Shown here one piece after another: positions 7,991-56,750 of a stretch of DNA of 64,000 nt. A program made the translations under genes and the position numbers. Source of the DNA: Bradyrhizobium sp. CB1650 (GTDB lineage Bacteria > Pseudomonadota > Alphaproteobacteria > Rhizobiales > Xanthobacteraceae). Within the stretch, counting starts at the first letter, position 1; each line of letters starts with the position of its first letter. The notes under the pieces are model-generated. The model was not told the DNA's origin. It saw only the letters and a list, made by a program, of their open reading frames with translations, and made no database searches. Where the stretch lies: positions 7,717,501-7,781,500 of the forward strand of contig NZ_CP121695.1 in the NCBI RefSeq assembly GCF_029761915.1, given 5' to 3'.

Positions 7991-8923
7991 TTACGTGATC
8001 CCTAGTGTAGCCTTTATGTCAGAAAACACGAGAGGCAGTTTTAGGCCCAACTGCCTATTGTTTTGTTCGATGAACCCAAGAAATTCTTTATCATACATGC
8101 TCACGCAGTTGAGCTCTCCGACTACTGTCTTCGATAGTATCGGAACTGACGACAGATCCACCACAGTGCGCGGCTCCAAGCGGAGAAGCGCTTCCTGAAG
8201 ATTAGTTTGATATTCATCAGTGAGATCGGCGGTTGCGATAACAACGATCGACCGTGGTTCGCGCGCGCCCCCCATGTCTGCTGGGCGCATAAGCGTCACT
8301 TCTATGTTCTTCAAGGGACGCAGGCGTTTGCGGAGGCTCTTAGGGTTCCTCGTTACGATCACCGTCGAGCGGAAACGCTCTCCGACACCACTCGTGATCA
8401 GCCCACGACCGAGCATACCCGCTCCGATGATGTAAAGGCGGTCGGGCGGCTCTCCACTCGCAAATCGATCGGCTATGATGTCTCGAACAATCTGATCGTA
8501 GTTCAGCGATGCGGTGAACCGCTGTCGCTCGCGCACGATACGACCTATATTAATCCCGGACTGCGCGATCTCGAAAATCGGAAAGGTTGGACTCACACAT
8601 TCGAGAGCTTTCGCGAGCTGCTGGCTTATGTAACTCTCACCGAGGATTTGGGAATGAGCGCCCGATGCAAGCTCAGCGATACGTCGTGCAATTGCAGCTT
8701 CACCTTCGACGCGTAGGTACGAAAGACCGGAAAATATCGTGCTATCGATTGCTCGGAGTTTGGTTTCTTCACCATAGACTTCAACTCGCGCGCAAGTTGC
8801 GAGCAGCAGAATCCCGTCTCTTCCCAAGCCGTTCGCAAGAGGCTTAACCTCCGCTGAAAGCTGCGCGATTGCTAGGGGCGCGGTCATCTTGTGGTCAATA
8901 TAAAAGCCAAGCAAGTCGCCCAT
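7991..8923 (-). CDS. Glutamyl-tRNA reductase-like protein without the dimerisation domain
   Basis: 310 residues, against about 415-430 for canonical HemA glutamyl-tRNA reductase. The N-terminal catalytic domain keeps the nucleophile Cys in LLLATCARVEVYGE (C44). It also keeps a form of the second family motif, SQILGESYISQQLAKALE. The NADPH domain shows YIIGAGMLGRGL near residue 165. The C-terminal helical dimerisation domain is absent, and the frame ends cleanly without it. Known GluTRs reduce the glutamate of Glu-tRNA to glutamate-1-semialdehyde for heme. Alphaproteobacteria normally make 5-aminolevulinate by ALA synthase, so a heme role is unlikely here. No HemL neighbour is present. I infer a biosynthetic role in the nearby amino-acid gene set; activity is unproven. 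Confidence 0.75.
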   Translation of the reverse strand: MGDLLGFYIDHKMTAPLAIAQLSAEVKPLANGLGRDGILLLATCARVEVYGEETKLRAIDSTIFSGLSYLRVEGEAAIARRIAELASGAHSQILGESYISQQLAKALECVSPTFPIFEIAQSGINIGRIVRERQRFTASLNYDQIVRDIIADRFASGEPPDRLYIIGAGMLGRGLITSGVGERFRSTVIVTRNPKSLRKRLRPLKNIEVTLMRPADMGGAREPRSIVVIATADLTDEYQTNLQEALLRLEPRTVVDLSSVPILSKTVVGELNCVSMYDKEFLGFIEQNNRQLGLKLPLVFSDIKATLGIT

Positions 8924-10041: not shown

Positions 10042-10150
10042 GAGCTATGCGGGAAAGTGGGTGATGACGGACTGAGATAGGCGGCGTATCGAGGCCGTGT
10101 CGAGCCCGCCAGAACCTCTCAAGGAGAGCGATACGCCATGAACGAGACTA
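10042..10150 (+). mobile_element. IS256 copy 2, left end (first 109 bp)
   Basis: Begins with the terminal repeat GAGCTATGCGGGAAAG and runs through the leader to the transposase start codon and the first codons (ATGAACGAGACTAG). The gene is then interrupted by the 828-bp IS5. The remaining codons are at 16640 reading leftwards on the minus strand, separated from this piece by a later inversion. Confidence 0.85.
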
Positions 10151-10978
10151 GAACCCATCTCAAAATTGAAGATCAGCGTCGATCGGCTATAAAGGAAAGA
10201 TGATTCGGCTGACGGACGAGCGATGGGAGCGCATCCGGAAACCCTTTCCGGAAGAGCACATTGCCGACGGCCGGCGGGCCGGAAGCGGATTGCGACGCGT
10301 CAGGTTCTCGAAGCCGCTCTTTGGATTTTGAACACGGGCGCGCAGTGGCACATGCTGCCGCAGTGCTATCCGAACTATAAGACCGTACATCGTCCTTTTC
10401 AGAACTGGTGTCGCAATGAAGTGTTGCGACGCGTCTGACCGATACCGCCAACGAACTTCGCGAGAAAGGCTTGCTCGACGAAGAGGAGTGTTTCATCGAC
10501 GCGACCTTCGATGGCCAAAGGCGGCGGTGCAGAGATCGGCCCAACGAGGCGCGGAAAGCGCTTAAAAATCATGGCGATTGTGGATCGCCACGGTTTGCCG
10601 CTTTCAGCGAGCACGTATGCCGCGAACCATCACGAAGTGCGCTTGGTACAGCTCTGCTTTGATTTCTACATGATCGAGGCCAAGCCAGAGAACCTGATCG
10701 GCGACCGCGCCTACGACAGCGATGCGCTCGACGATGAACTGCGGCCACAAGGCATCGAGATGATCGCGCCACATCGTTCAAACCGAGTGAGGTCGCTCAC
10801 CCAGGACGGCCGCAGGCTCCGTCTTTATACTCGGCGTCGGCTGGTCGAACGCTTCTTCGCCTGGATACAGTGGCGGCGACGCCTGCTGGTCCGCTGGGAG
10901 TTCTATCCGCAAAACTTCCTCGGCTTCGACCAGCTCGCTTGCCTGCTGATCCTGTTTCGACAATTCTGAGATAGGTTC
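10151..10978 (+). mobile_element. IS5-family (IS427-like) element, copy A, 828 bp
   Basis: Terminal repeats of about 18 bp, GAACCCATCTCAAAATTG and its inverse with two differences, bound the element. CTAG lies at each end (10148-10151 and 10978-10981). The transposase starts at ATG 10200 (MIRLTDERWERI) and continues through other frames: LNTGAQWHMLPQCYPNYKTV (to 10438), LDEEECFIDATF, then a 152-residue frame 10511-10969 with the catalytic IGDRAYDSD and VERFFAWIQW. Compared with the usual single-frame protein it has small indels near 10277, 10436 and 10507. Copy B at 16641 has the same layout. Confidence 0.88.
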
Positions 10979-10990
10979 TAGACTCTCCTC

Positions 10991-11959
10991 TCATCGCGGC
11001 AGAATCCTTCCAATACCAAGAGATCGGGCCTTCCGAAGCGACAGTTCTGCGAGTGCTAGATCTGCGATGGCGAAACCCCGAAAGCCAAAAAAGACCCTGT
11101 TCGAGGCGACACGCTGCGGCGAACGAAAAGCAAGATGCACAAGATCATCCTGAAATTTGATCGACTCGATGTATCGGTCTGATGCATCTACCGGTGCCGA
11201 GGATTGCTCTAATGAGTCTGTCACAAATACCTTGAAAGCACCGAGTGTTTCCGGCCGCCAACTTCTGCCTCCATCGACAGCCGAAACAAAGCACGGAATT
11301 GGCAACAACCGAGCGTCCAGAAAGGATTTCAATCCCGACGAACTTGGTACCATAGAGACCACGATCTCGCTGTCTCTCAATAAGACATCAGGATCATGGG
11401 TGATGATCGGATCGAGCTGCTTCTCAGATGCTTCAATTGCAGCCCTCTCTGCAGAGCGCATACTTCGACTCAAGAGATGAATTCTCCGGAGCGATGGAAA
11501 CAAGTCGACAAACGCTTGAATGTGGCTAAGCGCCTGCAGCCCGCAGCCGACCAACCCAATACTCGCCGGTGTCTCAGGAGCGAGATAAAGAGCTGCGGAC
11601 GCTGACATAGCTGCTGTCCTCATCAGAGTGATGGAATTCCCATCGAGTACGGCGACAGGCACGCCTGTCTTGTAATCGCTCACACAGATTAGGCCGTTAA
11701 CTGTCGACCTTTCCCCATTCCCCTCAAGCGGAATAGCTGCCACCCATTTCGATATTGCCAGGCCATTAATCTTAGACGCGGAATTCATCGAGCTAAACCA
11801 GGAACCCGGACCGATGGTAATCGTCGATTTCGGCAAACCAACGCTACCGCCAGCCGCATTGTCGCGAAAAGCGGCAAGCACCGCCTCTCTCACCTCACGA
11901 GGCGAAATTTGCAAATCTTGGACGTCGGCATTCGACAGATAGAGCAATTCGGAGGACAT
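10991..11959 (-). CDS. Ornithine cyclodeaminase/mu-crystallin family protein
   Basis: 322 residues, the normal length for the family. The NAD-binding Rossmann motif IGLVGCGLQALSHIQAF lies near residues 133-149. Family residues are present: SKWVA, SVSDYKTGVPVAVLDG-type strand, the conserved Arg in ITLMRTAAMSASAALYLAP, and the Asp-containing SAVDGGRSW. The start has AAAGGAAAG upstream. Members deaminate ornithine to proline, or act as imine or opine-type reductases (SbnB makes a diaminopropionate precursor), so the substrate cannot be named. Its 3' end is only 12 bp from an IS5 copy, and it lies within the inverted segment. It probably belonged to the amino-acid pathway on the right. Confidence 0.85.
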   Translation of the reverse strand: MSSELLYLSNADVQDLQISPREVREAVLAAFRDNAAGGSVGLPKSTITIGPGSWFSSMNSASKINGLAISKWVAAIPLEGNGERSTVNGLICVSDYKTGVPVAVLDGNSITLMRTAAMSASAALYLAPETPASIGLVGCGLQALSHIQAFVDLFPSLRRIHLLSRSMRSAERAAIEASEKQLDPIITHDPDVLLRDSEIVVSMVPSSSGLKSFLDARLLPIPCFVSAVDGGRSWRPETLGAFKVFVTDSLEQSSAPVDASDRYIESIKFQDDLVHLAFRSPQRVASNRVFFGFRGFAIADLALAELSLRKARSLGIGRILPR

Positions 11960-13312: not shown

Positions 13313-14761
13313 ATGTTCACCATGATGAATAAGATACGAACAACAAAATCGACTTCGGCTCCTCAGCACGAGCTTACCGAACGAACGGCCGGCGATTATC
13401 TCGCTAACGAGCTCTTCGAGACTGCGAAACTCGCGTTACCAATGGCACTGGGCCAGCTAGGGCAGATCGCGATGATGGCGACCCACCTCGTCTTTATCGG
13501 GCGCATAGGTGTAGAGGCGGTCGCTGCGGCCGGCTTGGCCGGCAGGATCTATCTTGTTGTCCTCAATGTAGGCATGGGCCTGCTGGCGGCGATCGCACCT
13601 TTTGCAGCGGAGGCATTTGGAGCGGGTAATCTCAATTCGGTCCGGCGCTCGTTGCGCATGGGGCTCTTCGCCGCGTTTATGTTGTCACTTCCGATCATCG
13701 GGATTGGCTTGTGCGGAGAGAAAATGCTAATTTTCGTTGGGCAATCAGCCGAGGCTGCGCGACTCGCCCAACATTATCTGCTCGGCCTAACATGGGGTGC
13801 GGCGCCAGCACTGTTGTTTGTGCCCATCCGTAGTTGTATGGCCGCAATGAACCGGGCAACGCCAATCTTGTGGATTACGCTCGCTGCTATACCCGTGAAC
13901 GCATTACTTGTCTATGTGCTGACATCAGGCAAGCTTGGCTTGCCCAGGCTGGAGCTGTTTGGGGCAGGTCTTGCGACCACTCTGGTGAACTGCGCGACTT
14001 TCTTGGCCGGCTTGTTATTCATCACAATGTATCGACCTTTGCGTAGCTATTGCATGATCGCCGATCTCTGCCGCTTCGATTGGCCGCTGATGCGGCAGCT
14101 GATCACGATCGGGGTCCCGATCTCGATCTCATTCTTGATCGAGTCTGGAGTGTGGTCTGCCGCGGCTCTGCTCGTCGGCGTCATAGGCACCAAGTCGCTT
14201 GCCGCCCATCAGGTGCCGTTCCAGATTGCCGTTGCTTTGTTGAGTATATCTAACGGCATTAGCATGGCGGCTACGGTGCGCGTTGCCCATGCGGTCGGTC
14301 GGAAGGACCGCAACGGCATCAAACGAGCAGGGTTGGTCGCGTTGCTTCTAGGCGTTGTGATCGTTGCGATCCTGACACTTGTTGCAGCTGTCGCCCGCTT
14401 TGAGATCACCAAATTGTTACTGGGGCAGCCGGGGCACGATGAGGACGCGACAATCAATCTAGCTGCGACGCTCGTTTTGATCGCTGCAAGCTCTTTCGTT
14501 ACCGCTGGAGTGTGCAGCATTGCGACGGGCGGATTGCGCGGAATGAAAGACACGCGTGTGCCGCTTCTGTTCGCCGGGATCTCCTATTGGGCGATCGGTT
14601 TTTCCCTTAGCTACCTGCTTGGATTTAAGATCGGCCTTAACGTCGTTGGAGTCTGGATCGGTCTATCAATGGGAACGGCAGTCCACGCGGTGCTGCTAGT
14701 ATCCCGATTCTACCTGTTAGCAAGCAAGATTGCTCTTCATACAGAAAAGTTGGCTCGATAA
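13313..14761 (+). CDS. MATE-family efflux transporter
   Basis: 482 residues with about 12 hydrophobic segments arranged as two repeats, the size of NorM-type MATE exporters. The N-terminal half begins ELFETAKLALPMALGQLGQI, a typical first MATE helix. The repeat starts near residue 250 with LMRQLITIGVPISISFLIES. MATE proteins expel cationic or amphipathic small molecules using Na+ or H+ gradients. ATG codons at 13313, 13322 and 13325 compete for the start and none has a strong ribosome site. Its location suggests it exports the product of the neighbouring biosynthetic genes. It lies inside the inverted segment. Confidence 0.93.
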   Translation: MFTMMNKIRTTKSTSAPQHELTERTAGDYLANELFETAKLALPMALGQLGQIAMMATHLVFIGRIGVEAVAAAGLAGRIYLVVLNVGMGLLAAIAPFAAEAFGAGNLNSVRRSLRMGLFAAFMLSLPIIGIGLCGEKMLIFVGQSAEAARLAQHYLLGLTWGAAPALLFVPIRSCMAAMNRATPILWITLAAIPVNALLVYVLTSGKLGLPRLELFGAGLATTLVNCATFLAGLLFITMYRPLRSYCMIADLCRFDWPLMRQLITIGVPISISFLIESGVWSAAALLVGVIGTKSLAAHQVPFQIAVALLSISNGISMAATVRVAHAVGRKDRNGIKRAGLVALLLGVVIVAILTLVAAVARFEITKLLLGQPGHDEDATINLAATLVLIAASSFVTAGVCSIATGGLRGMKDTRVPLLFAGISYWAIGFSLSYLLGFKIGLNVVGVWIGLSMGTAVHAVLLVSRFYLLASKIALHTEKLAR

Positions 14762-15354: not shown

Positions 15355-16640
15355 GAGCTATGCGGGATTTTGGGTGACGAGGCGATCAGGTGGCGTGGTT
15401 TGCCGGCACTTGGATGACCTCGATGCCGTCGTTGAATCTGACACCTGCGATTATCTTCGGCAACTGATTTGTGCCTTTGAGTCGCCGCCAGGTCTTTGAC
15501 GCGGCGATCACCAGCTTGAACACCATCGGCTTGGCGGTGGTCGGCGACAACGAGCCTTTCGTGCGCACCGTCCTGTGCCGCACGGTGGCGAACACGCTCT
15601 CGATGGGGTTAGTCGTGCGTAAGTGATCTCAATGCTCGGCGGGGAAGTCGTAGAAGGCCAGCAGCGCGTCGCGATCCTTGACCAGGCAGTCGACCGCTCG
15701 GCCGTACTTGGCGCGGTATTTCTCGGCGAAGACGTCGATCGCCACTTCGGCGGCCGCCCGGTTCGGCGCCCAGTAGACTTCCCGCAGGTCCTTCTTCATG
15801 TTGGCCTGCACCGAGAGCGGGACCTTGTCGAGGATGTTCACGGTCTTGTGCACCCAGCAGCGCTGGTGCCGCGTGCCGGGAAAGACCTCATCAAGCGCCT
15901 TCCAGAAGCCGAGCGCGCCGTCACCAACGGCAATTTCCGGGGCGATCTGCAACCCGCGCTGCTTGACGTCAATCAGCAGTTCACGCCAGCTCTGCGCGCT
16001 CTCCCGCACGCCGACCTGAAAGCCGATCAGTTCCTTCTTGCCTTCCGGCGTCGCGCCGATCAGCACCAACATGCATTCGCCGTGGTCTTCCATGCGCGCC
16101 TGCACGAATACGCCATCGGCCCACACATACACATAGCGCCGCGCCGACAGATCGCGCCTTTGCCAGCGCTCGTACTCGCCCTGCCACTCGGCCGTCAGCC
16201 GCGAGATCACCGCCGGCGACAGGTTCGGCGCGTCCTTGCCCAGCAAGGCCGTCAGCGCCTCCTGGAAATCGCCGGTCGAGATGCCGCGCAGGTACAGCAC
16301 CGGCAACAGCGCATCCAGGCTCCTGGTCCGTCCCCACAGCGGCAGGATCGCCGAGCTGAAGCGGATCCGCTCGCCGTCGCCGGCCGCCCCGCGGTCCCGA
16401 ATCTTCGCCCGCGCGACCTCGACCGGGCCGATGCCGGTCGCAATCGTTCGCGCCGGGCCGTAACCATGCCGCACGAGACGGGCGCGCCCGTCGGCAAGCT
16501 TCAAATCCTTCACCGTGGCAAGAAACGTCTCGACTTCGATCTCCACGGCCTGCGCCAGAAGCTGCCGCGCACCAGCGCGCAGGATATTGGTCAGTGGATC
16601 ATCGACATCATCGGGCTGACGAAGGGCAATTATCTTGCTA
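15355..16640 (-). mobile_element. IS256 copy 2, main part with transposase
   Basis: Reading leftwards from 16640: SKIIALRQPDDVDDPLTNIL, AVEIEVETFLATV, YVWADGVF, HGECMLVLIGATPEGKKEL, RCWVHKTVNIL, to PAEH at about 15629. An in-frame TGA stop follows, then DHLRTTNPIESVFATVRHRT to the stop near 15386. The terminal repeat GAGCTATGCGGG begins at 15355. Apart from the TGA (Trp in the family) the frame is open, so copy 2 is complete once the IS5 and the inversion are removed. The missing first codons, MNET, are at 10129-10150. Confidence 0.9.
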
Positions 16641-17468
16641 GAACCTATCTCAAATTTGTCGAAACAGGATCAGCAGGCAAGCGAGCTGGTCGAAGCCGAG
16701 GAAGTTTTGCGGATAGAACTCCCAGCGGACCAGCAGGCGTCGCCGCCACTGTATCCAGGCGAAGAAGCGTTCGACCAGCCGACGCCGAGTATAAAGACGG
16801 AGCCTGCGGCCGTCCTGGGTGAGCGACCTCACTCGGTTTGAACGATGTGGCGCGATCATCTCGATGCCTTGTGGCCGCAGTTCATCGTCGAGCGCATCGC
16901 TGTCGTAGGCGCGGTCGCCGATCAGGTTCTCTGGCTTGGCCTCGATCATGTAGAAATCAAAGCAGAGCTGTACCAAGCGCACTTCGTGATGGTTCGCGGC
17001 ATACGTGCTCGCTGAAAGCGGCAAACCGTGGCGATCCACAATCGCCATGATTTTTAAGCGCTTTCCGCGCCTCGTTGGGCCGATCTCTGCACCGCCGCCT
17101 TTGGCCATCGAAGGTCGCGTCGATGAAACACTCCTCTTCGTCGAGCAAGCCTTTCTCGCGAAGTTCGTTGGCGGTATCGGTCAGACGCGTCGCAACACTT
17201 CATTGCGACACCAGTTCTGAAAAGGACGATGTACGGTCTTATAGTTCGGATAGCACTGCGGCAGCATGTGCCACTGCGCGCCCGTGTTCAAAATCCAAAG
17301 AGCGGCTTCGAGAACCTGACGCGTCGCAATCCGCTTCCGGCCCGCCGGCCGTCGGCAATGTGCTCTTCCGGAAAGGGTTTCCGGATGCGCTCCCATCGCT
17401 CGTTCGTCAGCCGAATCATCTTTCCTTTATAGCCGATCGACGCTGATCTTCAATTTTGAGATAAGTTC
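16641..17468 (-). mobile_element. IS5-family (IS427-like) element, copy B, 828 bp, inverted relative to copy A
   Basis: Same length as copy A and nearly identical inside, with the same broken reading frames (152-residue frame 16650-17108; 71-residue frame 17181-17396). CTAG is present at both ends (16638-16641 and 17468-17471). A few bases of the terminal repeats differ from copy A (GAACTTATC here at the transposase-start end). The two copies face each other and bound a 5.66-kb segment. Confidence 0.88.
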
Positions 17469-17493
17469 TAGTAACTTACTATAAAGTTCGCGG

Positions 17494-18400: not shown

Positions 18401-18558
18401 CGAGGTAGTAGTGTGCTAGCTTGGCGGCTTCATGTAAGAGCTGGCAAGACAGCGATTTCAGCGGCAATCGACTCAACGGACGCGCAACAAGCGGAAGGCG
18501 ATGAGAGTGGCATTGAGCCGCGTGGATCTCTTTTCTTAGGCCGACACCGACACGTCGA

Positions 18559-19851
18559 CTAGGTCGTCATCGTCTCCCTCAAAGTTGAACCATGATACTC
18601 TTTTCGGAAAAGGCCGCGTTTCTGGAGGATCGGAACGACCGATCGCGTGAAAGCCTCGAATGAGCCGGGCATTTGGGTGGGCATCACAACGAAGCCATCG
18701 CAGCACTCTTGTTCGAAGAGTTGCTGAAGCTGATCAGCAACTCTCTCCGGCGTGCCCACGACTTGAAGACAAGCCTCGCCGACTGCGACGCGCTTGACCA
18801 CTTCGCCGAGAGTTAAATTGTTGACGATGGCCGTTTGAATGACGCCTTCGAAGTGGGCATGAGGCGCGGCTTCCGACAGGATGTCGCCAACCTGCATATC
18901 TATTGGATACTGCGAAAAATCTAACCCGGTGTAGGCTGAGACGAGAGGGATAGCGAGACGAGGTTCAATCAGTGCATTGATGTAGGCCCGCTTTTCGCGG
19001 GCAATTGATTCAGTTTCGCCCACGATGGGGGCTACCGATGCAAGAACTGCGCAGTCCTCCGGATTCCGTCCCGCTTTCGTGACACGATCCTTCATATCGG
19101 CATAGAATTTCTGCATGTTCGCCAACGAATGCTGGACCGTAAAGACAATTTCCGCGTAAGTAGCGGCGAACTTGCGTCCGCGAGGTGTAGATGAGCCAGC
19201 GTACATGATGACCGGGCTCCCCTGAGGACTCGGAGGAACGGTGAACGTGCCTCTTGCCCCGACAAATTTCCCGGCGATTTCGGTTTGGCGTATCTTCGTA
19301 CTGTCAATGAAGCAGCCGCTTTCCTTATCGACTACGAGTGCTCCGTCGGACCACCCCTTCCACATCGCGAGACAGATTTTTAGGACCTCCTCGGCACGAT
19401 CGTATCGCTCATGGCGCGACGGGAATGTATCATCGTCTAAACTCTCAGCCCAATCGCTCTGCGAGGCCATGATGTTCCAGGCTAGCCGGCCGCCGCTCAG
19501 AACATCGAGCGATGATAGTAGACGGGCTATCGCATGAGGCTCATGCAAACCGGTCGATATCGTCACGCCGATTCCAATATGCGAAGTCGCGCGCGCCATG
19601 ATGGCTGCAAGCGGAATAGGATCAAGCAGCGAGATCTGTCCGCCCCATGCCATCGCCGCTTCAGTGTGGAAGCACGGGATATCGGCAAAAACAATTCCAT
19701 CAAATCTAGCGACCTCGAGCGTTCGCGCAATGCTTTCCCAGAATGCTGGGTCAAGAAACCTGTTCTCCGCTTCTGGGTGACGCCACATGGCGTGGTGACA
19801 CGAGGCAGGCCCCGTAATGAGGAACGCTACGAGTTTCATTTGACGCAACAT
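18559..19851 (-). CDS. FMN-dependent monooxygenase, NtaA/SnaA/DszA (LLM) family
   Basis: 430 residues from the ATG at 19851; a longer frame opens at 19935, but homologues start near LVAFLITGPASCHHAMWRHP. Family blocks are visible: SLDVLSGGRLAWNIMAS, FPSRHERYDRAEEVLKICLAMW, GTFTVPPSPQGSPVIMYAGS and CDGFVVMPTQMPGSFEAF. These two-component enzymes use reduced FMN from a partner reductase to oxidise substrates such as nitrilotriacetate or sulfur heterocycles, or to carry out late steps in antibiotic synthesis. No reductase gene is adjacent. It is the last minus-strand gene of the set starting at 24249, though separated from the ligase gene by about 950 bp. A role as a tailoring oxygenase is inferred. 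Confidence 0.9.
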   Translation of the reverse strand: MLRQMKLVAFLITGPASCHHAMWRHPEAENRFLDPAFWESIARTLEVARFDGIVFADIPCFHTEAAMAWGGQISLLDPIPLAAIMARATSHIGIGVTISTGLHEPHAIARLLSSLDVLSGGRLAWNIMASQSDWAESLDDDTFPSRHERYDRAEEVLKICLAMWKGWSDGALVVDKESGCFIDSTKIRQTEIAGKFVGARGTFTVPPSPQGSPVIMYAGSSTPRGRKFAATYAEIVFTVQHSLANMQKFYADMKDRVTKAGRNPEDCAVLASVAPIVGETESIAREKRAYINALIEPRLAIPLVSAYTGLDFSQYPIDMQVGDILSEAAPHAHFEGVIQTAIVNNLTLGEVVKRVAVGEACLQVVGTPERVADQLQQLFEQECCDGFVVMPTQMPGSFEAFTRSVVPILQKRGLFRKEYHGSTLRETMTT

Positions 19852-20797
19852 TTCATTGCCCTGACGTTCAGCTGCTGGGAGATATGCCACTAGCGCGGGT
19901 GTTCGAGGTTGCAGCGAGTTGAGCGTCAGCCCCACGCTTGCAAAGTCGTCGTGGTTTCCCTTTCGCTGCGAATTCTGATCGACCTGCGGCGCAAAGTAAG
20001 CGGCACATTGCCGGTACCTTTTCCGAACGCGAGCTGATCAGCATATGCGAGCCGAGATATACAGGCAGGCGCCGTATATGGTTGACCATTGTTGGCACTT
20101 CGGACTCGCCGGGCCGAGTAATATTCGGGTCGGTGATTATGCCGGCGACGGTAGAGCGACGAAGGTCAAGGAACGGATCATGGCAGAGACGTATGCGAGG
20201 GCGTTGTTGCGTCGGAGGAGCCGCCCCGGCGCGGCCGCGTACCGCGAACTCTCTTCGCTTGGCAGAGGGTGGCGCGTGGACTGAGCTTTTTGACGGGGGA
20301 TGCCCCACTCTCGTTCCGTCAATATCTGAGCTGCGCTGGGAGGTGCGTGGAAGCGGCCATATGCAACGCGACTACGATCAGCATCGTGATTGGCGGTACT
20401 GGGGTTCTCGCAGCCGCGGGAGCGACCCGGGCTCGTTACGCGATGTGCTGCGTGCCATGGTGGCGTGACGACATGATCCCCAGCTCCCAGGGTGTGACGA
20501 TCATTGTCGCAACGAGGTGACTTCCATGAAGAGGTCGATACTCCGCCACACCGTGTGCGAGCAACTTGCCTATGAACCCTTCGCGGACACAATTTTCGTT
20601 CTCCGTTGCAAGCGAGCGAACCGTCTGAAACTTCTGGCCTTGGGGCCGATGCGGGCTGCCGCGGCGGCTGGAGCACTCCGCGCTCTGTTTGCCGCCCGTT
20701 ACGCGGCCTACTGTTGTGAATAGCCCGGCAAGCCAGATGCCCAAATCTAACTGTGAGCGTAACTCGAATAGCTGAACTATTCGACAACAGCGGCCGG
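19852..20797. other. 950-bp gap without a recognised gene
   Basis: Frames of 60-245 codons exist on both strands but have no recognised domain or ribosome site. Part of a minus-strand frame near 20440-20500 is hydrophobic. The gap probably contains a promoter for the monooxygenase gene and possibly a decayed gene. Confidence 0.4.
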
Positions 20798-21817
20798 TTA
20801 CCTATTGAAGTAGGCAATGAGTAACTCGGCAACCTGATCTGAACGATCGATCCCAGAAGCAAGTTGTGTGTCATATAGCCCGCCGGTATTCGCTATATTG
20901 AATTCGAGTACATATGGATAAGCCATATCTATGCCGGCGAAAGTGATTCCATGTGCCATCAGTTTTTGACCAACCAACTCGGCAAGCTCAACTTCGCGGG
21001 AATGTAGATCGACGGGAACCAACCTTCCTCCTTGCGTAAGATTCGACCGATGATCGTCTGGAGAACTTTGCCGGCCGTGCCAGGCAACCGCCTTTCCGCA
21101 TGTCACAATGATGCGTTTTTCCCCTTGGGCCACCTCCGGGATATGTTGCTGAAGAATGGCGTACTCAGCTTTAAAGCCACGTACGCCATGCCCGAGCTCG
21201 TGTTTCCCGTGTTGCGCGACGGCACCAAATTCGTCTAGTGCGACGGTGTTTCCGGTGAGGCATTGGAGAATTGTTCGAACATTTGATCCATTTGGAGAGA
21301 GCAAAAAGACGTTCTGCCCGCCGAAGGCGTTGGGCGGTTTGGCGACCAAGCATTGATCTTGGATCTGCTGATAACGTTCCCACATTAACGAGAAATCGTT
21401 CGAGATATATGAGGTCGGCCTATTCTCTTTCGGTACGACATAACCAGCCGCGTGTTTCGTGTCTAGAAAGGCCAGCCCCTCGACGCTGTTAACGAAGCGA
21501 ACGTTTTGAGAAGCTAGCCACAACATTTGCCAAACATCGCGCGCCACGAGCGGATGAGGTGGAGTCATGACCCAGATCAGCTGGCACTCATCTAGGAAGT
21601 ATGCATCTCGATCTCCCAGTGCCGCAGAGCCTGGATAGTAGGGTTGGCCGTCTTCCGGCACCCGCACACCTCGTGCGAAATAACGATAGTCGTCCGCCGC
21701 AATAGTATTCACGTCACCGAGAATTACCTCCCAGCCGAGACGACGGAAAGCATTACTGATAGGTGCATCATTTTCACCCAAGCAATTGAGGTGCCTTGTC
21801 AGAATAAGCAATCTCAC
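20798..21817 (-). CDS. ATP-grasp ligase, glutathione-synthetase-like
   Basis: 339 residues starting at a GTG with a near-perfect AGGAGG 7 bases upstream. The fold order fits prokaryotic GshB: an N-terminal pre-ATP-grasp domain (LLILTRHLNCLGENDAPISN, AYFLDECQLIWVMTPPHPLV), then ATP-grasp strands (CLVAKPPNAFGGQNVFLL, GEKRIIVTCGKAVAWHGRQ). The end is YVLEFNIANTGGLYDTQLASG, equivalent to the GshB metal-binding E-x-N-x-x-x-P/G motif. Such enzymes join a carboxyl-phosphate to an amine. Here it would amidate or couple an amino acid made by the upstream genes. It is not the housekeeping GshB, whose sequence differs. Same strand as, and 333 bp after, the oxygenase gene. Confidence 0.85.
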   Translation of the reverse strand: MRLLILTRHLNCLGENDAPISNAFRRLGWEVILGDVNTIAADDYRYFARGVRVPEDGQPYYPGSAALGDRDAYFLDECQLIWVMTPPHPLVARDVWQMLWLASQNVRFVNSVEGLAFLDTKHAAGYVVPKENRPTSYISNDFSLMWERYQQIQDQCLVAKPPNAFGGQNVFLLSPNGSNVRTILQCLTGNTVALDEFGAVAQHGKHELGHGVRGFKAEYAILQQHIPEVAQGEKRIIVTCGKAVAWHGRQSSPDDHRSNLTQGGRLVPVDLHSREVELAELVGQKLMAHGITFAGIDMAYPYVLEFNIANTGGLYDTQLASGIDRSDQVAELLIAYFNR

Positions 21818-22150
21818 GACGTCCTCCTGGCCAGATTGGCAAACAGCGTACTAGTTGCGCGCAGAGCTGATGGTACCGAGGTCTCGCGTCATCCGGTCGA
21901 ACGTAACGTTTGCTCTCGTGATGCTAGCTAGAGTCTCGCTCGGTTCAAGGATAAATCGCAAATTCCATGCCAGGACTCTCTGGTCTCTAAGCGACTGATT
22001 TGGTTCGACACTCTAATCCGATGAATGATTGACGCGTGTTCTAGATCCGACACGATTGGTGCTGTTGTCACAGGTCGAACACCGGTCGCAGCTCCTACCA
22101 CTCGACGGTCTCGTTGACGTTGCCCTGGCCGCACGCGAGGTACTCCAACT
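21818..22150. other. 333-bp spacer within the minus-strand gene set
   Basis: No gene seen. A promoter for the ligase gene may lie here. The only sequence feature I can support is the strong ribosome site next to 21817. Confidence 0.4.
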
Positions 22151-22987
22151 TCAGGTCCACCAGAGAGCAAGGTCTGGCGCGGCAAACCCGAAGAAGCTAT
22201 TGAGGACCAGCCGCCGCTTTCCGGCGAATGGCGTAACCCCATGAACGAACCCACCGTCGATAAGGGCAATGTCTCCCGCCTTTAGCTGGAAGTCGTGATA
22301 GGGGACGTCTTTAAGATACGTGCCGGAGTAGGGATATCCCGTAGTCTGTACACGCTGAGCCTTTCGATCGGCGACTGTTGGCTTATGGCTCCAAATCCGC
22401 AAACTACCCCCTTGATCGGCAACGCTAGGATAGAAGTTCAGGGCAACAACGGTGTTGTTCGCCACCGAGGAGATATCGTAGTCGTTCCCAGCATAGAGCA
22501 CCTGAGCTACGTCATCGTGAGGCTCCAGAGCATACGTTCCGACACCAGACCAACAGATGGCGCGACAAGTGTTCGCTTCTCCGTGTTTTGAGCGGGACAA
22601 TCTTAATTCAATTCCTCGCTGGCGGAGCTCTCGCCTCAATGCCTCGAACAATCCGTGGACCGGGTTGACCATATTGGCAAAAAGAGCATCTACGAACGGT
22701 CGGGCGTTCTCCGAATCTGCGAAATACGTGGCTGCATCCTTACGATAGTGAGACGCACCAACATATTGTCCGGGCACTCCATCATTCCTTTCTTTGAGAC
22801 CGGGATTGCCAGTGAAGTTCGCGGTAATCTCGGCTGCAACTTCGAGATTGAAGCCTCCTTTGATATGCACGCCAGTGATCTCACCCTTCATAATAGAGAT
22901 AATCTCAGCGGTGCTGATCGAGCCGCTTCTTTCTCTGATCGCAAGAGGCGAGATCGTTGGCGCTTGAGTTGCTTGCTTCGCTGTCAT
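22151..22987 (-). CDS. Fe(II)/2-oxoglutarate-dependent oxygenase
   Basis: 278 residues. The facial triad is visible: H157 and D159 in LEPHDDVAQV, and H249 in LIDGGFVHGV, followed by Arg in FAGKRRLVLN (R258/R259), the likely 2-oxoglutarate anchor. The Asp of the HxD motif is present, so hydroxylation or desaturation is more likely than halogenation, where it is replaced by Gly or Ala. The ATG overlaps the stop of the aminotransferase gene (ATGA), implying translational coupling and a shared pathway. A natural guess is hydroxylation of diaminobutyrate or its derivative. EctD-type ectoine hydroxylase is a different subgroup. Confidence 0.85.
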   Translation of the reverse strand: MTAKQATQAPTISPLAIRERSGSISTAEIISIMKGEITGVHIKGGFNLEVAAEITANFTGNPGLKERNDGVPGQYVGASHYRKDAATYFADSENARPFVDALFANMVNPVHGLFEALRRELRQRGIELRLSRSKHGEANTCRAICWSGVGTYALEPHDDVAQVLYAGNDYDISSVANNTVVALNFYPSVADQGGSLRIWSHKPTVADRKAQRVQTTGYPYSGTYLKDVPYHDFQLKAGDIALIDGGFVHGVTPFAGKRRLVLNSFFGFAAPDLALWWT

Positions 22988-24249
22988 TGGCTTTGCTCCT
23001 GTATTGCGTGATCGAGAATGGCGATGGCATCATCTAATTCGGTATCCGTTATGGTGATCGGCGGTAGGACTTTGATGACGTCGCGATTTGGCCCCGAAGA
23101 TTCGATGAGCAAGCCCTTCTGGAAAGCAAGATCGTGCACACGACCGACAACCTCCTGTGAGCGGCACTTGAGGCCGGCCATCAGACCGCGGCCACGCTTT
23201 TGCTCGATGACGTCAGGAAATTTCTCCAGGAGGTGATCAAGGTGTGCTTGCAACTTGATTGCCGTCCGCTCTACGCCTGCAGTAAACTGCTTGTTGGACC
23301 ACATTTTGCACATGGCTACCGCGGTCACAAAGGCGAGATTGTTACCTCTGAAGGTCCCGCTATGTTCCCCAGGGGTCCATATGTCTATGTCGGGGCGAAT
23401 CAGAACAACGGATAACGGATTACCTGAACCGCTCAGCGATTTGGAAAGACAGATGATATCTGGTTCGATTTTTGCGGTCTCGAACGAGAAGAAGTCGCCC
23501 GTTCGTCCCGCCCCCGCCTGAATGTCGTCAACGATCAAAAGAACACCATGCTTACGGCAAATGCGCTGAATTGCCGCGAGCCAAGCTGGCGATGCGGTGT
23601 TCATGCCACCTTCCGCCTGGATCGTCTCCAAAATAATTGCAGCGGGTTTTTCCACGCCGCTCCCCGGATCACCCAATACATGGTCGATGTAACTTGCGGA
23701 ATCGAATGCGCGATTCGGGTAGCCCTCGTAGGGGACTCGGATCACATCCTGGCGAGAAACGCCGCCTAGGTTTCTGGTGGACGCCGAGCCCGACACCGCT
23801 AACGAGCCGAGAGACATACCGTGGAAGGCATTCGTGAAGGCCATAACGCTTGAACGGCCAGTATATTTTCGGGCGAGGGCAAGCGCCGCTTCATTGGCGT
23901 TGGTGCCGGTAGGGCCAGGAAATTGAATCTTGTAAGAGAGGCCCCTCGTCTTCAGAATCGATTCGACAAACACTTCAATGAAGTCCCGTTTCGCGGCTGT
24001 ATTCATGTCAAGCGACAAAAGAATGTTTCCGCCAGTGAGATATTCAATCGCCGGTTGGACTATATCGGGATTATTATGCCCGTAGTTAAGTGCTCCGGAC
24101 CCTACAAAGAAATCAATATAAGGTTTACCCATCTCGTCCCAGATTATCGCCCCACGAGCCTTCGTAAAGACTGTGGGGAATGATCGCGCATACCGGCGAA
24201 CGTTTGATTCATGAGCTGCGAAAGTGTCGGTATTCATCTTAGTATCCAT
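22984..24249 (-). CDS. Class III aminotransferase, EctB-like (diaminobutyrate--2-oxoglutarate type)
   Basis: 421 residues, full length. It is close to EctB/DABA aminotransferases: YIDFFVGSGALNYGHNNP, KIQFPGPTGTNANEAALALA, AFTNAFHGMSLGSLAVSG, LIVDDIQAGAGRTGDFFSFE, ICLSKSLSG (PLP Lys K270, with D242 contacting the pyridine) and HSGTFRGNNLAFV. Known members convert aspartate-4-semialdehyde to L-2,4-diaminobutyrate. The ectoine genes ectA and ectC are absent, so the diamine would be used for something else. ATG at 24249 (or the in-frame ATG at 24237) lacks a strong ribosome site. It is first in the minus-strand set and coupled to the oxygenase; an 88-bp tandem duplication lies just upstream. Confidence 0.92.
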   Translation of the reverse strand: MDTKMNTDTFAAHESNVRRYARSFPTVFTKARGAIIWDEMGKPYIDFFVGSGALNYGHNNPDIVQPAIEYLTGGNILLSLDMNTAAKRDFIEVFVESILKTRGLSYKIQFPGPTGTNANEAALALARKYTGRSSVMAFTNAFHGMSLGSLAVSGSASTRNLGGVSRQDVIRVPYEGYPNRAFDSASYIDHVLGDPGSGVEKPAAIILETIQAEGGMNTASPAWLAAIQRICRKHGVLLIVDDIQAGAGRTGDFFSFETAKIEPDIICLSKSLSGSGNPLSVVLIRPDIDIWTPGEHSGTFRGNNLAFVTAVAMCKMWSNKQFTAGVERTAIKLQAHLDHLLEKFPDVIEQKRGRGLMAGLKCRSQEVVGRVHDLAFQKGLLIESSGPNRDVIKVLPPITITDTELDDAIAILDHAIQEQSQ

Positions 24250-24305
24250 ATGCCTAAGATTCGGGAGATTCGTTCTTGCTTTGCCTAGCGCCTCTTACCT
24301 ACACA

Positions 24306-24481
24306 AGAACCGTTATCGGTGAACCTATAGAGATTGGTAGTTTCGTAAAATCGGGCCGCTTGTGGCTATCGTGTGTGTCATCAACATGGGGGCAGAACCG
24401 TTATCGGTGAACCTATAGAGATTGGTAGTTTCGTAAAATCGGGCCGCTTGTGGCTATCGTGTGTGTCATCAACATGGGGGC
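24306..24481. repeat. Perfect 88-bp tandem duplication upstream of the aminotransferase
   Basis: Unit 1 is 24306-24393 and unit 2 is 24394-24481; I see no mismatch between them. It begins 57 bp before the aminotransferase start, so it duplicates promoter-proximal DNA. On the minus strand each unit contains CGATTTTAC and CCAATCT, words that also occur in nod boxes but here in the wrong spacing. It may be a recent slippage event or a duplicated regulatory site. Confidence 0.9.
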
Positions 24482-25015
24482 TGTTACTTCGGACCGAGCG
24501 GCTGCGACGTAGCACAGAGTCTCTATCGAATCCTAAGTTCCCTCAGGCGGCTGAGAATTTGTCCGATCTGCCGATAGGCGCGATGTGATCGGTGCGCATA
24601 GCGCAGCACCCGATCCTGGTCCGGTTTGGCATGATGCCAGACTCCTGACGCGGTCTACCATCTGAGCTGCGATTGAAGTCTTGTGCTGTCGTACGTCCCT
24701 GCTCGACGATTTGGAAATCGATGAACACGATCACGCAGATGCGTTTTCGGTTGATCTATCGGATCCACGGGCGGCACATTACCAGCCTCCCAGATGTACG
24801 CACCTACCAAGTTCGCCCAAGCGGCCACTCGAGGCATCGCACGATCATTTCCGGCCAGGTCGCGTTTATGCTGCGCCAGTCGAACGGCTATGGCGCAGCG
24901 TCAAATGAGAGGGAGCGGCCCCATGACAGCGTCAGCGATGCACTCGCTTCGATCGGCCGATCACTCGATTTCTACAACCGCACATCAGAACACCCATCTG
25001 TTTATATCGTGGTTA
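24482..25015. other. 530-bp stretch without a recognised gene
   Basis: Short frames only, with no domain recognised. It may contain far-upstream control DNA of the aminotransferase gene or transposase scraps too decayed to name. Confidence 0.4.
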
Positions 25016-26830: not shown

Positions 26831-27269
26831 TCCTCGAGTGGCGATCGGAGTCGACGCTGATTTCTCCCGAGGACGCAGCTTTCCCGTGCGTGCGTTTTTT
26901 CAACGCTGCATCGCTGTAATACGCCAGATTTCTGCGCCGGGAATGCAGTAATCTAGCAATTTCTGAGAGTTCAGCACCTCTTCGAGGTATACGAGAGGCG
27001 CTTCGATAGATGATTCCTCTACGGCAACTTTTAGCCAGGTGCGAGAACTCGCCGACAATCTGAATTCTGGGTAAAACATCGATGAGCTCAAGCGTTGAGA
27101 GACCGTTGCACATAACGTTCAACTAGGGAGCGAGTGGACCAATTTCCAGAATGACGGCCGCGACCGCGCAGGACAAACATTCCCTGATGCTGGCCAAAAG
27201 CTGCGCATCATCGCGCTTCCTTTCTGCCCGTTGGATCCCTGGGTCCAGCAAGGCACGGCAGGGGCTGCT
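26831..27269. other. 440-bp gap before the MFS_3 gene
   Basis: No recognised gene. A short minus-strand frame (26900-27091) has balanced composition but no ribosome site or domain. Confidence 0.4.
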
Positions 27270-28979
27270 ATGAGCATGAGGCAGAAGTCAGCGACGCTTC
27301 CCGGCGACGGCATCACAGCGCCCCTCCGACATGTCACCTTTCGTCGCATCTGGGTGGCGGGCCTTCTCTCAAACGTAGGGGCTCTGATTCGCAGCGTCGG
27401 GGCTGCGTGGGCGATGACACAAATGACGTCATCGGCCGACATGGTGGCGCTCGTCCAGACCGCGCTGACGCTTCCAGTAATGTTGATTGCAATGCCAGCC
27501 GGCGCGATTGCGGACATGCATGATCGCCGACTCGTGTCACTCATCTCGCTTGGCATTGCCCTCATCGGTGCCACTGTGCTCACAGCGCTTGCATGGCTCG
27601 ACATGGTCACACCGATCCTGCTGCTGGCGTTGTGCTTTGTCGTTGGCAGCGGCGTAGCGCTGATGGATCCAACGTGGCAATCTTCGGTAAGTGAGCAGGT
27701 ACCCCCCGACGCACTGCCCGCTGCCGTCGCGCTGAGCGGCGTCAGCTACAATATCGCGCGCTGCATCGGCCCAGCGCTCGGCGGCATCGTCGTGGCGACT
27801 TCCGGCGCGGTGGCTGCGTTCGCTTTGAATGCTTTGCTTTATTTACCGTTAATGGCCGCGCTGTTGCTATGGAAGCGCGTAGCGCGGCCTTCGCGACTGC
27901 CGCCTGAACAATTCAGTCGCGCGATTGTCTCCGGTGTTCGATACGTTACCAATTCCCCTTCGATCAAGATCGTCTTGATCCGTTCCATGGTGACTGGTGT
28001 AATCGGCGGCGCAATCCTCGCCCTGATGCCTATAGTAGCACGAGATCTGCTGCATGGCGGCGCGCAGACATATGGCCTCTTGCTCAGCGCCTTTGGCCTC
28101 GGGGCAGTAATTGGCGCACTCTACATCCCCGAAATGCGCAAGCGTTTGAGTGGCGAGGCAGCCATTCGCGCCTGCACGCTGTCGATGGGTGGAAGCCTTG
28201 TCGCAGTGGCTCTGAGCCACGGCCTGATCTTGACATCGGCCGCGCTGGTGTTGGCCGGCGCCGTGTGGATGATAGCATGGGTGCTGTTTAACGTGGGCGT
28301 TCAGCTGTCGGCGCCCCGCTGGGTTGCCGGACGTTCGCTTGCGGCTTATCAAGCAGCGGGATCAGGCGGGGTTGCAATCGGTAGTTGTGGATGGGGCAGC
28401 CTGGCTGACGCCGCTGGCGTCGAAACTGCGCTCCTGGTGTCGGGCGCGCTGATGCTGCTCTCGCCTCTGCTGGGGCTCTGGTTACCCATGCCACGCGTAG
28501 GCGCGCGTGGTGAAGAAGCCGAACTGCTCGATGATCCCAACGTGCAGCTGACGTTGACCGGCCGAAGCGGCCCGTTGGTAGTCGAGATCGAATATCGAGT
28601 TGCACAGGAGAATGCTCGAGCGTTTCATAATGCCATGCAGGCAGTGCAGCTGTCCCGTCAGCGTAACGGAGCTTATGGATGGTCGATAGCGCGCGACATC
28701 GCCGATCCGGAATCCTGGACGGAGCGCTATCATTGCGCGACGTGGTTTGACTATCTGCGGCAGCGTAACCGTGCGACGAGATCGGAACGCGCGCTGGAGC
28801 GAGAAGCGGAAGCTTTTCACATCGGACCTGATCCTGTGCGCGTTCGTCGACTGCTCGAGCACCCCTTTAGATCGGTGCGCTGGAAGACGATAACCCCAAC
28901 CGATTCGAAAACGAAGTCCTGTTCCATGAGAATACCCCTGGCCGGAGCCGATAGCCGCAGCTTCGTGGATGGGCGTTAG
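27270..28979 (+). CDS. MFS_3-family (EntS-like) exporter with a C-terminal cytoplasmic domain
   Basis: 569 residues from the ATG at 27270, preceded by GGCAGGGG; an upstream TTG at 27231 is less likely. The first 410 residues hold about 10-12 membrane helices with APLRHVTFRRIWVAGLLSNV at the start, typical of the MFS_3 (PF05977) group. The last 140 residues form a soluble domain (VVEIEYRVAQENARAFHNAM, WSIARDIADPESWTERYHCA) resembling a ferredoxin-like barrel, a known feature of this group. Relatives export enterobactin and other small molecules. It is intact amid relics and may serve the nearby oxygenase genes. Confidence 0.88.
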   Translation: MSMRQKSATLPGDGITAPLRHVTFRRIWVAGLLSNVGALIRSVGAAWAMTQMTSSADMVALVQTALTLPVMLIAMPAGAIADMHDRRLVSLISLGIALIGATVLTALAWLDMVTPILLLALCFVVGSGVALMDPTWQSSVSEQVPPDALPAAVALSGVSYNIARCIGPALGGIVVATSGAVAAFALNALLYLPLMAALLLWKRVARPSRLPPEQFSRAIVSGVRYVTNSPSIKIVLIRSMVTGVIGGAILALMPIVARDLLHGGAQTYGLLLSAFGLGAVIGALYIPEMRKRLSGEAAIRACTLSMGGSLVAVALSHGLILTSAALVLAGAVWMIAWVLFNVGVQLSAPRWVAGRSLAAYQAAGSGGVAIGSCGWGSLADAAGVETALLVSGALMLLSPLLGLWLPMPRVGARGEEAELLDDPNVQLTLTGRSGPLVVEIEYRVAQENARAFHNAMQAVQLSRQRNGAYGWSIARDIADPESWTERYHCATWFDYLRQRNRATRSERALEREAEAFHIGPDPVRVRRLLEHPFRSVRWKTITPTDSKTKSCSMRIPLAGADSRSFVDGR

Positions 28980-30867: not shown

Positions 30868-31045
30868 AGCGAATAGGTAAAGCGAGAGCGATCTTGCGCT
30901 TCCTGCCAGATTCGATAGGACGATTCCCTTCCCTTTTGCTGTACTCTTCAGGGGGCCACCAGCTCTCTCGAGTAAAGCGCCGCATTGTAAGTAGCGGCGA
31001 CCTGACGTGTCGAGACACCGAATCTATAGAGGAGATAAGCAGGCC

Positions 31046-31909
31046 ATGGAAAATGCGAGACCAGCCTCATCAATGGTAAACCGCGATCACTTGGAGTGTG
31101 TGCAAAGTCAAATTAACTTTGCTCGACGCACGTCCGACGAAAAAGCTCCCGAAGCTGTTTTGCCGGGATTCGACACGGCCTCCCCAGTTCAAGTCGTCCT
31201 GCCGCCAATGGTTGGCTACAACGTTACTATTCGCAACGCGCGTCCCATCGTGGGCGAACTATCCCTCGACCGGGAAGGTTTCACCCTCATTCAGCACAAC
31301 ATTTCCTATGCAAACGAGGGGGATCCAAGAACTTTGTCCCACAGATATCTGGAAGACATGGTTCCGTTCATCAAGAACTACTTCAATGCGTCGTGGGTCG
31401 TGCCCCGCCGACAAGCTGTTATTGTTCGTTCTACCAGCGGGAGATCCTTTCCCGAAGGATGTGAGCCGCGTCTATTGGCTCATATTGATTACGCACCGAT
31501 CTCCGGTCCTATAACTGGCGCGATCGAGGACCAATTGCAGGGCATTCCGTCAAAAATGTATTCTCGATTGATCATCGCTCAAACTTGGCATGCCCTCTCG
31601 CCGCCTCCGCAGGATTTCCCCTTAGCGTTCTGCGATGGCGCCTCCGTTGACGATACCGATAGTGTCGTGATGGACTACACGTTTCGTGGCACCAAGCTTA
31701 AGTTTTGCCTCATGCACTTCAATCCTGCTCAGCGTTGGTATTATTTTCCCGAGATGACCGCGGACGAGCTCATTTTGTTTAAGGGCTATGATTCGGAAGC
31801 GCATTGCAATGCAAAGGCGCCTCACTCGGCCTTCGATAATCGTCGCGCATATCCTAGTGCAAAGCCCCGTGAGAGTATCGAGGCGCGCTTCTGCGTGTAC
31901 TACGACTGA
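31046..31909 (+). CDS. CmcJ/NvfI-family Fe(II)/2-oxoglutarate-type oxygenase
   Basis: 287 residues from ATG 31046, chosen because GAGGAG lies about 11 bases upstream; an ATG at 31007 lacks a ribosome site. The signatures of the CmcJ/NvfI/AsaB group are clear: H146 and D148 in LLAHIDYAP, WHALSPPPQDFPLAFCDGAS, YYFPEMTADELILFKGYDSE, H260 in KAPHSAFD, and an Arg in PRESIEARFCVYYD. Characterised relatives hydroxylate, desaturate or rearrange natural products such as cephamycins, fungal meroterpenoids and aspergillic-acid-type or plant-like compounds. It stands alone between IS relics and is complete. Substrate unknown. Confidence 0.85.
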   Translation: MENARPASSMVNRDHLECVQSQINFARRTSDEKAPEAVLPGFDTASPVQVVLPPMVGYNVTIRNARPIVGELSLDREGFTLIQHNISYANEGDPRTLSHRYLEDMVPFIKNYFNASWVVPRRQAVIVRSTSGRSFPEGCEPRLLAHIDYAPISGPITGAIEDQLQGIPSKMYSRLIIAQTWHALSPPPQDFPLAFCDGASVDDTDSVVMDYTFRGTKLKFCLMHFNPAQRWYYFPEMTADELILFKGYDSEAHCNAKAPHSAFDNRRAYPSAKPRESIEARFCVYYD

Positions 31910-50777: not shown

Positions 50778-50812
50778 GTGCCGCGCTCCTTTCCCATTCC
50801 TCTCATCACCAG

Positions 50813-52246: not shown

Positions 52247-52495
52247 CTTTTATTCCTTAAACGAGGTGAAATGGGCTCAGTTGCTAGTAGCCAAGCCCAA
52301 CTGCATAAACCCTTGCGTCGATGCAGATATGAAACGAGTCGTTACGTCGGTACCGTCATCCCAACACGGGATGTAATTTTTGATTTGCGGCCGCTAGTTA
52401 TCTGCACATCCGAAAAATCCACCTCTTCCGTCGCCGGCGCCGCCATAAACTCTCGACCTCTCCGGCGATCAGATAGGACCACATGTCGACTCTCC
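52247..52495. other. 250-bp spacer between deaminase and dehydrogenase genes
   Basis: No gene. It might contain an internal promoter or processing site, but I see no strong hairpin or promoter. Confidence 0.4.
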
Positions 52496-53395: not shown

Positions 53396-53407
53396 GATCT
53401 GTTTTCC

Positions 53408-54900: not shown

Positions 54901-54911
54901 CGTGCTCTCCG

Positions 54912-55883: not shown

Positions 55884-55887
55884 GGCG

Positions 55888-56730: not shown

Positions 56731-56750
56731 TGACGTCTCCTCTATTGAAC

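Follow-up and report, generated by a model that had tools for sequence, protein, structure and literature searches.

HilA, the first oxygenase of the Hil operon of Pantoea ananatis, hydroxylates free L-isoleucine; its description (PMC3684760) places it in an operon with a second oxygenase, HilB (PF10014), joined in some strains by an ATP-dependent ligase (HilD) and an MFS exporter (HilE), and a dipeptide antibiotic has been proposed there. Dat of Rhizobium leguminosarum UPM791 has demonstrated L-2,4-diaminobutyrate (DABA) aminotransferase activity, produces DABA in pea nodules and aids growth on homoserine (PMC10228743). Expression of msi260 of Mesorhizobium loti R7A, which encodes a putative DABA transaminase, reached 1339 Miller units in nodules, the top nodule value in the part of the published table examined, and fell to 5.1 in a nifA2 mutant; the authors of that study thought direct NifA control unlikely (PMC3538637). 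A DABA transaminase of P. phymatum also depends on NifA (PMC8305402). Here we describe two overlapping genes in a 64,000-nucleotide stretch of Bradyrhizobium sp. CB1650 (NZ_CP121695.1, positions 7,717,501–7,781,500; the whole stretch is called the window below), encoding an EctB-like class III aminotransferase (AT) and an Fe(II)/2-oxoglutarate (2OG) oxygenase of the HilA/WelO5 type (OXY). They form a genuine coupled unit whose conservation extends well beyond CB1650. Among the matches listed, the literature searched held no paper about such a pair, nor one about a rhizobial WelO5-type enzyme.

The stop of AT overlaps the start of OXY by 4 nucleotides (nt), as an earlier sequence-only reading of the window had it, and both frames are open in the list of open reading frames (ORFs). 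The ratio of nonsynonymous to synonymous change (dN/dS) is 0.07–0.10 in eight comparisons of the window AT with its relatives and 0.05–0.17 in nine comparisons for OXY, with dS above 1 in 14 of the 17 and often near saturation. Since ratios as low as these indicate purifying selection, the two frames are not there by chance. The genome is a single contig of 9.43 Mb which carries nodA. The nearest proteins to OXY are named Bradyrhizobium, with B. tunisiense at 98% among the matches listed; this species seemingly has two OXY copies, 98% and 73% identical to that of the window. A PHROGs search gave no match.

We surveyed 195 Bradyrhizobium genomes, counting OXY at an identity of at least 67% and AT of the OXY-paired clade (defined below) at an identity of at least 80%. 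OXY is present in 16 genomes (a 17th match, in G132, was weak at 27% and was left out) and the AT clade in 14, in every one of which the two genes adjoin; the next ATs fall to 50%. The 14 co-occurrences compare with 2.07 expected by chance among the 108 NodA-positive genomes. OXY stands without a clade AT in two genomes, G061, where only a fragment of AT adjoins it, and G131. Across 26 loci around OXY (the window and 25 others, some near-identical to each other and some short) a full-length AT is found in 23 and is the only gene that generally adjoins OXY. With frames antisense to the pair excluded, second place goes to a LuxR-type regulator, found at 6 of the 26. The position that matches OXY residue 1 falls between a point 128 nt before the end of overlap with AT, within its frame, and one 4 nt beyond the AT stop, in a count of 62 rows which includes many repeats of one genome and some rows without a start codon at that position. 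The exception is Rhizobium jaguaris (L099), in which the AT frame continues beyond the usual stop and neither gene is annotated, suggesting a frameshift or loss of the stop. Pseudogenes of AT were considered in G070 and G141 and rejected; the flagged stops fall at the edges of the frame (aligned residue 3, or its end), so all 14 clade ATs look open.

The pair belongs to symbiosis DNA and, in Bradyrhizobium, is tied to nodulating strains. A strong NodA match is present in 16 of the 16 OXY genomes against 108 of 195 overall (p = 4.6e-5; 16 genomes with merely weak NodA matches were dropped beforehand), and the two genes lie 116–286 kb apart in the six genomes that have both on one contig. Seven plasmid records contain OXY. 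Five are rhizobial (two Mesorhizobium, two Sinorhizobium and one Rhizobium), with AT adjoining in each, and the remaining two are Streptomyces records at 28% identity. An order-wide scan of 279 genomes, that of CB1650 included, added two further OXY matches at E 1e-20. In Mesorhizobium sp. 131-3-5 the pair is found near iscN-iscU, and in M. loti R7A msi260 stands two gene numbers from these genes (msi262–263; PMC3538637). Given the same neighbours, msi260 is probably the orthologue of AT, by synteny alone. The pair is widespread, and its probable M. loti member is strongly expressed in nodules.

OXY scores 39.7 bits against the Pfam WelO5 family (PF22814), for which the cut-off is 27, and HilA, the closest of its relatives to have been described, is its sole NCBIfam match. 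When the window protein was aligned with the best 120 of its 227 homologues (E 0.001), H157, D159, H249 and R259 were invariant in all 121 proteins, and they still hold after adding a Streptomyces relative of 26% identity; the HXD..H iron site and the 2OG arginine are present. In WelO5-type halogenases a glycine (Gly/Ala) replaces the metal-site Asp. Because its HXD..H site is retained, OXY should hydroxylate and not halogenate, that is, it should be a hydroxylase-type oxygenase despite database naming after a halogenase. A search of PDB sequences found no relative of OXY.

AT is EctB-like, as the sequence-only reading had said; it scores 621.2 bits against the EctB equivalog TIGR02407, where the cut-off is 552.2, and its closest PDB sequence is EctB 6rl5. 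Neither ectC (PF06339) nor ectA (TIGR02406) has a match in the 9.43-Mb genome, in agreement with the same reading, and the ectC model was positive in a control Bradyrhizobium genome, G182. In a tree of 55 rows, the window AT and 25 other OXY-paired ATs form their own clade of 26 (support 100/100) on a long stem of 1.03 changes per column; L127, a long row outside the clade, is flagged by the tree program as perhaps wrongly placed. The Dat row (L088) groups with L095, L096 and L097 outside this clade. When L127 is dropped, the clade departs from the other 28 rows at nine positions that are conserved among them. An AT from Coralliovum, which groups with the clade with support of 0.74 at the nearest node, has seven of the nine in common with it (A124, D168, E200, A212, K351, K361 and I398) and has likewise lost H78; V368 is not in common. 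Near the pyridoxal phosphate (PLP) lysine, K270, Y275 is found in 23 of the 29 other DABA aminotransferases and is replaced by S in 24 of the 26 clade rows, and L277, present in all 29 other rows, gives way to N, S, T or I throughout the clade. Such changes go hand in hand with the presence of OXY and, being conserved, mean that the substrate may not be aspartate semialdehyde.

Some relatives of the pair are found in wider gene runs. In G237, whose OXY matches a Coralliovum pocilloporae protein without a difference, the order on one strand is a MetRS-like gene, AT (61%), OXY (44%, overlapping), a methyltransferase, a LysE-type exporter and a PF10014 (HilB-type) oxygenase. Judged from its gene families, the run resembles the Hil set, headed by an aminotransferase and supplied with an exporter from an amino-acid-moving family. 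Neither the window nor the rhizobial loci gave a match to the four extra proteins, and at E 1e-4 the HilB-type protein matches nothing else there or in the other loci compared. The MetRS-like gene heading this run (L156) could be a self-resistance copy, a hint of a methionine-like product. On one of the five rhizobial plasmids, that of Sinorhizobium meliloti LMB1, AT, OXY, an ATP-grasp with a LAL_C2 domain and a MATE gene follow on one strand, with gaps of 0.8–1.0 kb after OXY and after the ligase. The LMB1 ligase is of another ATP-grasp family than that of the window, and the LMB1 MATE has no match to the window MATE at E 1e-5; L-amino-acid ligases of the LMB1 type occur at 246 places in 117 plasmid records, some of them non-rhizobial. 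The proposal of a pathway with a ligase and exporters finds support elsewhere, for the pair with an L-amino-acid ligase and MATE (LMB1) or with LysE (Coralliovum), and is not supported for the seven window genes as one pathway. In G131 (L077, L152), OXY without a clade AT has asd, an amino-acid kinase and another DABA aminotransferase 6–13 kb off, and also AMP-ligase, BKACE, aldehyde dehydrogenase and methylaspartate ammonia-lyase genes. Because of the last of these a 3-methyl substrate is conceivable, and the set suggests a possible 3-methyl-diaminobutyrate pathway. Another S. meliloti strain, RRI128 (L097), has a DABA aminotransferase with aspartate-semialdehyde dehydrogenase, a kinase-like gene, an ATP-grasp ligase and lysine 2,3-aminomutase, resembling a dedicated biosynthetic set.

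The reading that we favour, with slightly more belief than doubt, is of a portable two-gene cassette that oxidises a free amino acid, most likely by way of aspartate semialdehyde, DABA and hydroxylated DABA. AT and OXY would be translationally coupled. AT would transaminate an omega-semialdehyde, most likely L-aspartate semialdehyde to give DABA, which is the best guess for its product given the G131 context and an enzyme that is in other respects EctB-like. OXY, using Fe(II), O2 and 2-oxoglutarate, would then hydroxylate this free amino acid, C3 being the likeliest position since a hydroxyl at C4, beside the amine, would revert to the semialdehyde. The product would be exported, or ligated in strains with a ligase. 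Several genera carry the cassette on their symbiosis islands and plasmids, amid differing neighbours. Several observations weigh against this. Neither the two ectC-linked EctBs nor Dat fall in the AT clade, which has K124A, D200E, G212A and the loss of H78 in common with the Coralliovum AT. OXY reaches only 84.4 bits against the HilA equivalog (NF041274, cut-off 500), aligning residues 50–278 with 55–285 of 285; its predicted structure, at a mean pLDDT of 46.6, is too poor for use or for a fold search, and the literature searched gave no assay for any enzyme of its subfamily. Finally, the msi260 insertion mutant was fully effective (PMC3538637).

The first of these points could mean that AT has changed its substrate, aminating another semialdehyde or a keto acid whose product OXY then oxidises, so that the outcome would still be a free oxidised amino acid although not one made from DABA. 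The long stem, the nine diagnostic positions with seven of them also in Coralliovum, and the replacement of Y275 and L277 speak for it; the EctB equivalog score and the asd, amino-acid kinase and ordinary DABA aminotransferase near OXY in G131 speak against, and we regard it as a real but lesser possibility. The role of the pair might also be nutritional, DABA being made from a homoserine-derived semialdehyde and used, as proposed for Dat. The Dat activity, nodule DABA and growth on homoserine described in PMC10228743 are in line with this, yet Dat is in a different clade and its 29-kb stretch has no OXY match, so that we think this role rather unlikely. That the pair is a remnant of ectoine or hydroxyectoine synthesis agrees with the TIGR02407 score of AT, but no ectA or ectC was found in the genome and AT is outside the ectC-linked branch; we reject this origin as extremely improbable. 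Nearly as improbable, and also rejected, is a halogenase, as current database names of the WelO5 family imply and as the Pfam score would allow, given the invariant D159.

The remaining alternative, that of the sequence-only reading, is that seven genes of the window (AT, OXY and the ATP-grasp, LLM, OCD, GluTR-like and MATE genes; Table 1) jointly make one small amide. The ligase and the NtaA-type monooxygenase do follow the pair on the same strand, all seven lie within 17 kb, and other-clade DABA aminotransferases are found near OCD genes (in 5 of 7 genomes, at up to 30 kb), beside an ATP-grasp (L070) and, in R. leguminosarum, with Nfe2 and ATP-grasps; LMB1 has the order AT-OXY-ligase-MATE, though neither its ligase nor its MATE is orthologous to that of the window. 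Against this, none of the loci examined has all seven together. OXY and the close ATP-grasp co-occur in 4 of the 108 NodA-positive genomes (1.63 expected, p = 0.057), OXY and OCD in 2 (1.19 expected, p = 0.34) and OCD and other-clade ATs, as mere co-presence, in 6 (4.37 expected, p = 0.20); LLM at E 1e-150 is in 1 of 195 genomes, and insertion sequence (IS) copies lie between the parts. A single pathway of this kind therefore seems to us rather improbable. What is conserved beyond the strain is the AT-OXY pair and not the gene set: only these two stay together in relatives, the others being mostly separate modules, and the neighbourhood looks like at least two modules plus single genes. No nonribosomal peptide synthetase or polyketide synthase was noted in the window, a check made on annotated ORFs only and not on the whole window.

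Table 1 Features of the window around the AT-OXY pair (positions are those of the window)
Feature	Position	Strand	Remarks
AT, EctB-like class III aminotransferase, 421 amino acids	22984..24249	-	First gene of the pair; K270 conserved
OXY, Fe(II)/2OG oxygenase, HilA/WelO5-type, 278 amino acids	22151..22987	-	H157-X-D159...H249 and R259
Perfect 88-bp tandem duplication	24306..24481	not applicable	Upstream of AT
GshB-like ATP-grasp ligase (GSH-S_ATP)	20798..21817	-	333 nt downstream of OXY; separate from the pair in relatives
NtaA/DmoA-family flavin mononucleotide (FMN) monooxygenase (LLM)	18559..19935	-	862 nt beyond the ATP-grasp gene
MATE exporter	13313..14761	+	Between the inverted IS5 copies
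OCD/mu-crystallin-family protein	10991..11959	-	Between the inverted IS5 copies
Nfe2 homologue (GluTR-like)	7991..8923	-	TC44xRxExY and S..LGE motif kept
MFS exporter (MFS_3)	27231..28979	+	3 kb beyond AT
Inverted IS5 copies	10147..10981 and 16638..17472		835 nt, 99% identical

The ATP-grasp protein of the window has GSH-S_ATP and RimK domains only, the LAL C-terminal domain not being detected, and may be a partner of the cassette. Close relatives (at least 61%) are found in 11 of the 195 genomes, and some match, mostly distant and GshB-like, in 191. OXY and a close ATP-grasp are together in 4 of 195, and in the three other than that of the window they are ~89 kb apart, ~134 kb apart or on separate contigs. 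Among the best 20 of 53 plasmids similar to window positions 18500–24500, the match is the pair, part of AT, the ligase or the LLM gene, and never two of these units; none of the 53 records has a place covering 80% of that interval. Relatives of the LLM gene are found on Mesorhizobium and Rhizobium plasmids, with the pair absent from the same match, and at E 1e-150 no Bradyrhizobium genome besides that of the window has one. Relatives of MFS_3 are near OXY in L014 and in L080, where the gene is split over two frames, and in G118 a 47% identical MATE adjoins an OCD relative.

OCD, GluTR-like and MATE genes had been placed together in an inverted segment; all three exist, with OCD and MATE inside the IS5 copies and the GluTR-like gene outside. 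The inverted copies could flip the OCD-MATE segment. In G139, OCD (80%), ATP-grasp (68%) and GluTR-like (71%) genes form one 5.4-kb run behind a DHDPS-family gene, within a 16.7-kb stretch in which neither AT nor OXY is found, and on plasmid p187_1 the ATP-grasp (65%) and GluTR-like (66%) genes are 2.8 kb apart with another OCD-family gene alongside. Because of these runs, the OCD, ATP-grasp and GluTR-like genes of the window were probably once a single mosaic module, since split by IS elements. Against this, 9 of the 11 genomes with a close ATP-grasp have no GluTR-like relative at E 1e-40. OCD and ATP-grasp are present together in 2 genomes, a frequency compatible with chance (0.81 expected, p = 0.19). 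OCD relatives lie within 5–30 kb of an other-clade DABA aminotransferase in 5 of 7 other genomes.

The GluTR-like protein is 58% identical to S. meliloti GR4 nfe2 over residues 1–308 of 310; the GluTR cysteine motif and the S..LGE motif are conserved in all ten aligned Nfe2-family sequences, and the family is found on 18 rhizobial plasmid records. Nfe2 is a nodule formation efficiency protein, and the GR4 nfe locus comprises nfe1, nfe2 and an OCD gene (nfeD). The OCD gene of the window lies 2 kb from the Nfe2 homologue and is 23% identical to that of GR4; the literature searched yielded nothing on nfe genes themselves. Further along, at 49386–58211, are MocR-type regulator, aldehyde dehydrogenase, DHDPS-family, ABC transporter, proline-racemase-family and DAO genes resembling hydroxyproline catabolism, and Mesorhizobium sp. 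AR02 (L094) has binding protein, racemase, permease, ATPase and DHDPS genes near Nfe2 in an order matching that of the window. A CmcJ/NvfI-family oxidoreductase (NF041278, 226 bits) at 31007–31909 is perhaps another 2OG oxygenase.

The LuxR-type regulator, with an autoinducer-binding domain, is found near the pair at 57–72% identity in a number of loci from Mesorhizobium, Sinorhizobium and Rhizobium, at 55–56% near other DABA aminotransferases (NGR234, CIAT 899) and at 56% near the Nfe2 gene of R. etli bv. mimosae (L020, L099, L101, L095, L096 and L090); it has no match in the window. On sequence comparison the common regulator hints at a common theme without making the window genes one pathway. 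Control by NifA and sigma-54 was rejected, there being no -24/-12 match in 39 stretches of 230–500 nt upstream of AT, a set including repeats of one genome; sigma-54-like matches in the window are at chance level (36 against a shuffle mean of 31.9). TGT-N10-ACA is present in five Mesorhizobium stretches of the 39, and no conserved palindrome was found upstream of AT. A link to queuosine was dropped: queEDC is close to the pair in a single Mesorhizobium and to a 28% Streptomyces homologue, and is not among the recurring families listed.

Tentatively, and with more doubt than belief, we suggest that in four rhizobial genera the symbiosis islands and plasmids carry an undescribed cassette for oxidation of a free amino acid, whose oxidised diamino-acid product would act in or around the nodule. 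It would be one of a larger diamino-acid family built from interchangeable parts (DABA aminotransferases, ATP-grasps, Nfe2/OCD and MATE/MFS), some under the common LuxR-type regulator. If true, this family would give a biochemical setting for the nodulation-efficiency protein Nfe2, with its conserved GluTR-type cysteine.

Compared with the known systems, the cassette is probably a fresh variation on the Hil-type theme, acting on what is probably a free amino acid. It resembles the Hil operon (PMC3684760) in its HilA-type oxygenase, in its free amino-acid substrate (demonstrated for HilA and predicted for OXY), in the hilA-hilB coupling reported in some bacteria, in the ligase and exporter partners of some strains and, in Coralliovum, in a PF10014 partner; it differs in that its constant partner is a DABA-type aminotransferase, with no HilB-type gene found in the window. 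WelO5 is of the same Pfam family as OXY, which differs in keeping the Asp ligand. AT keeps the PLP lysine of EctB (6rl5) and scores with its equivalog, whereas its genome is without ectA and ectC, it forms a separate clade and conserved residues are altered. Dat (PMC10228743) is likewise of DABA aminotransferase type, on symbiotic DNA and with nodule-linked expression, but it is 51% identical to AT, in a separate clade and without an OXY partner. The window and the GR4 nfe locus are alike in nfe2 and differ in their OCD proteins. For msi260, annotated as a DABA transaminase near iscN-iscU (PMC3538637), the likeness to AT is one of synteny only.

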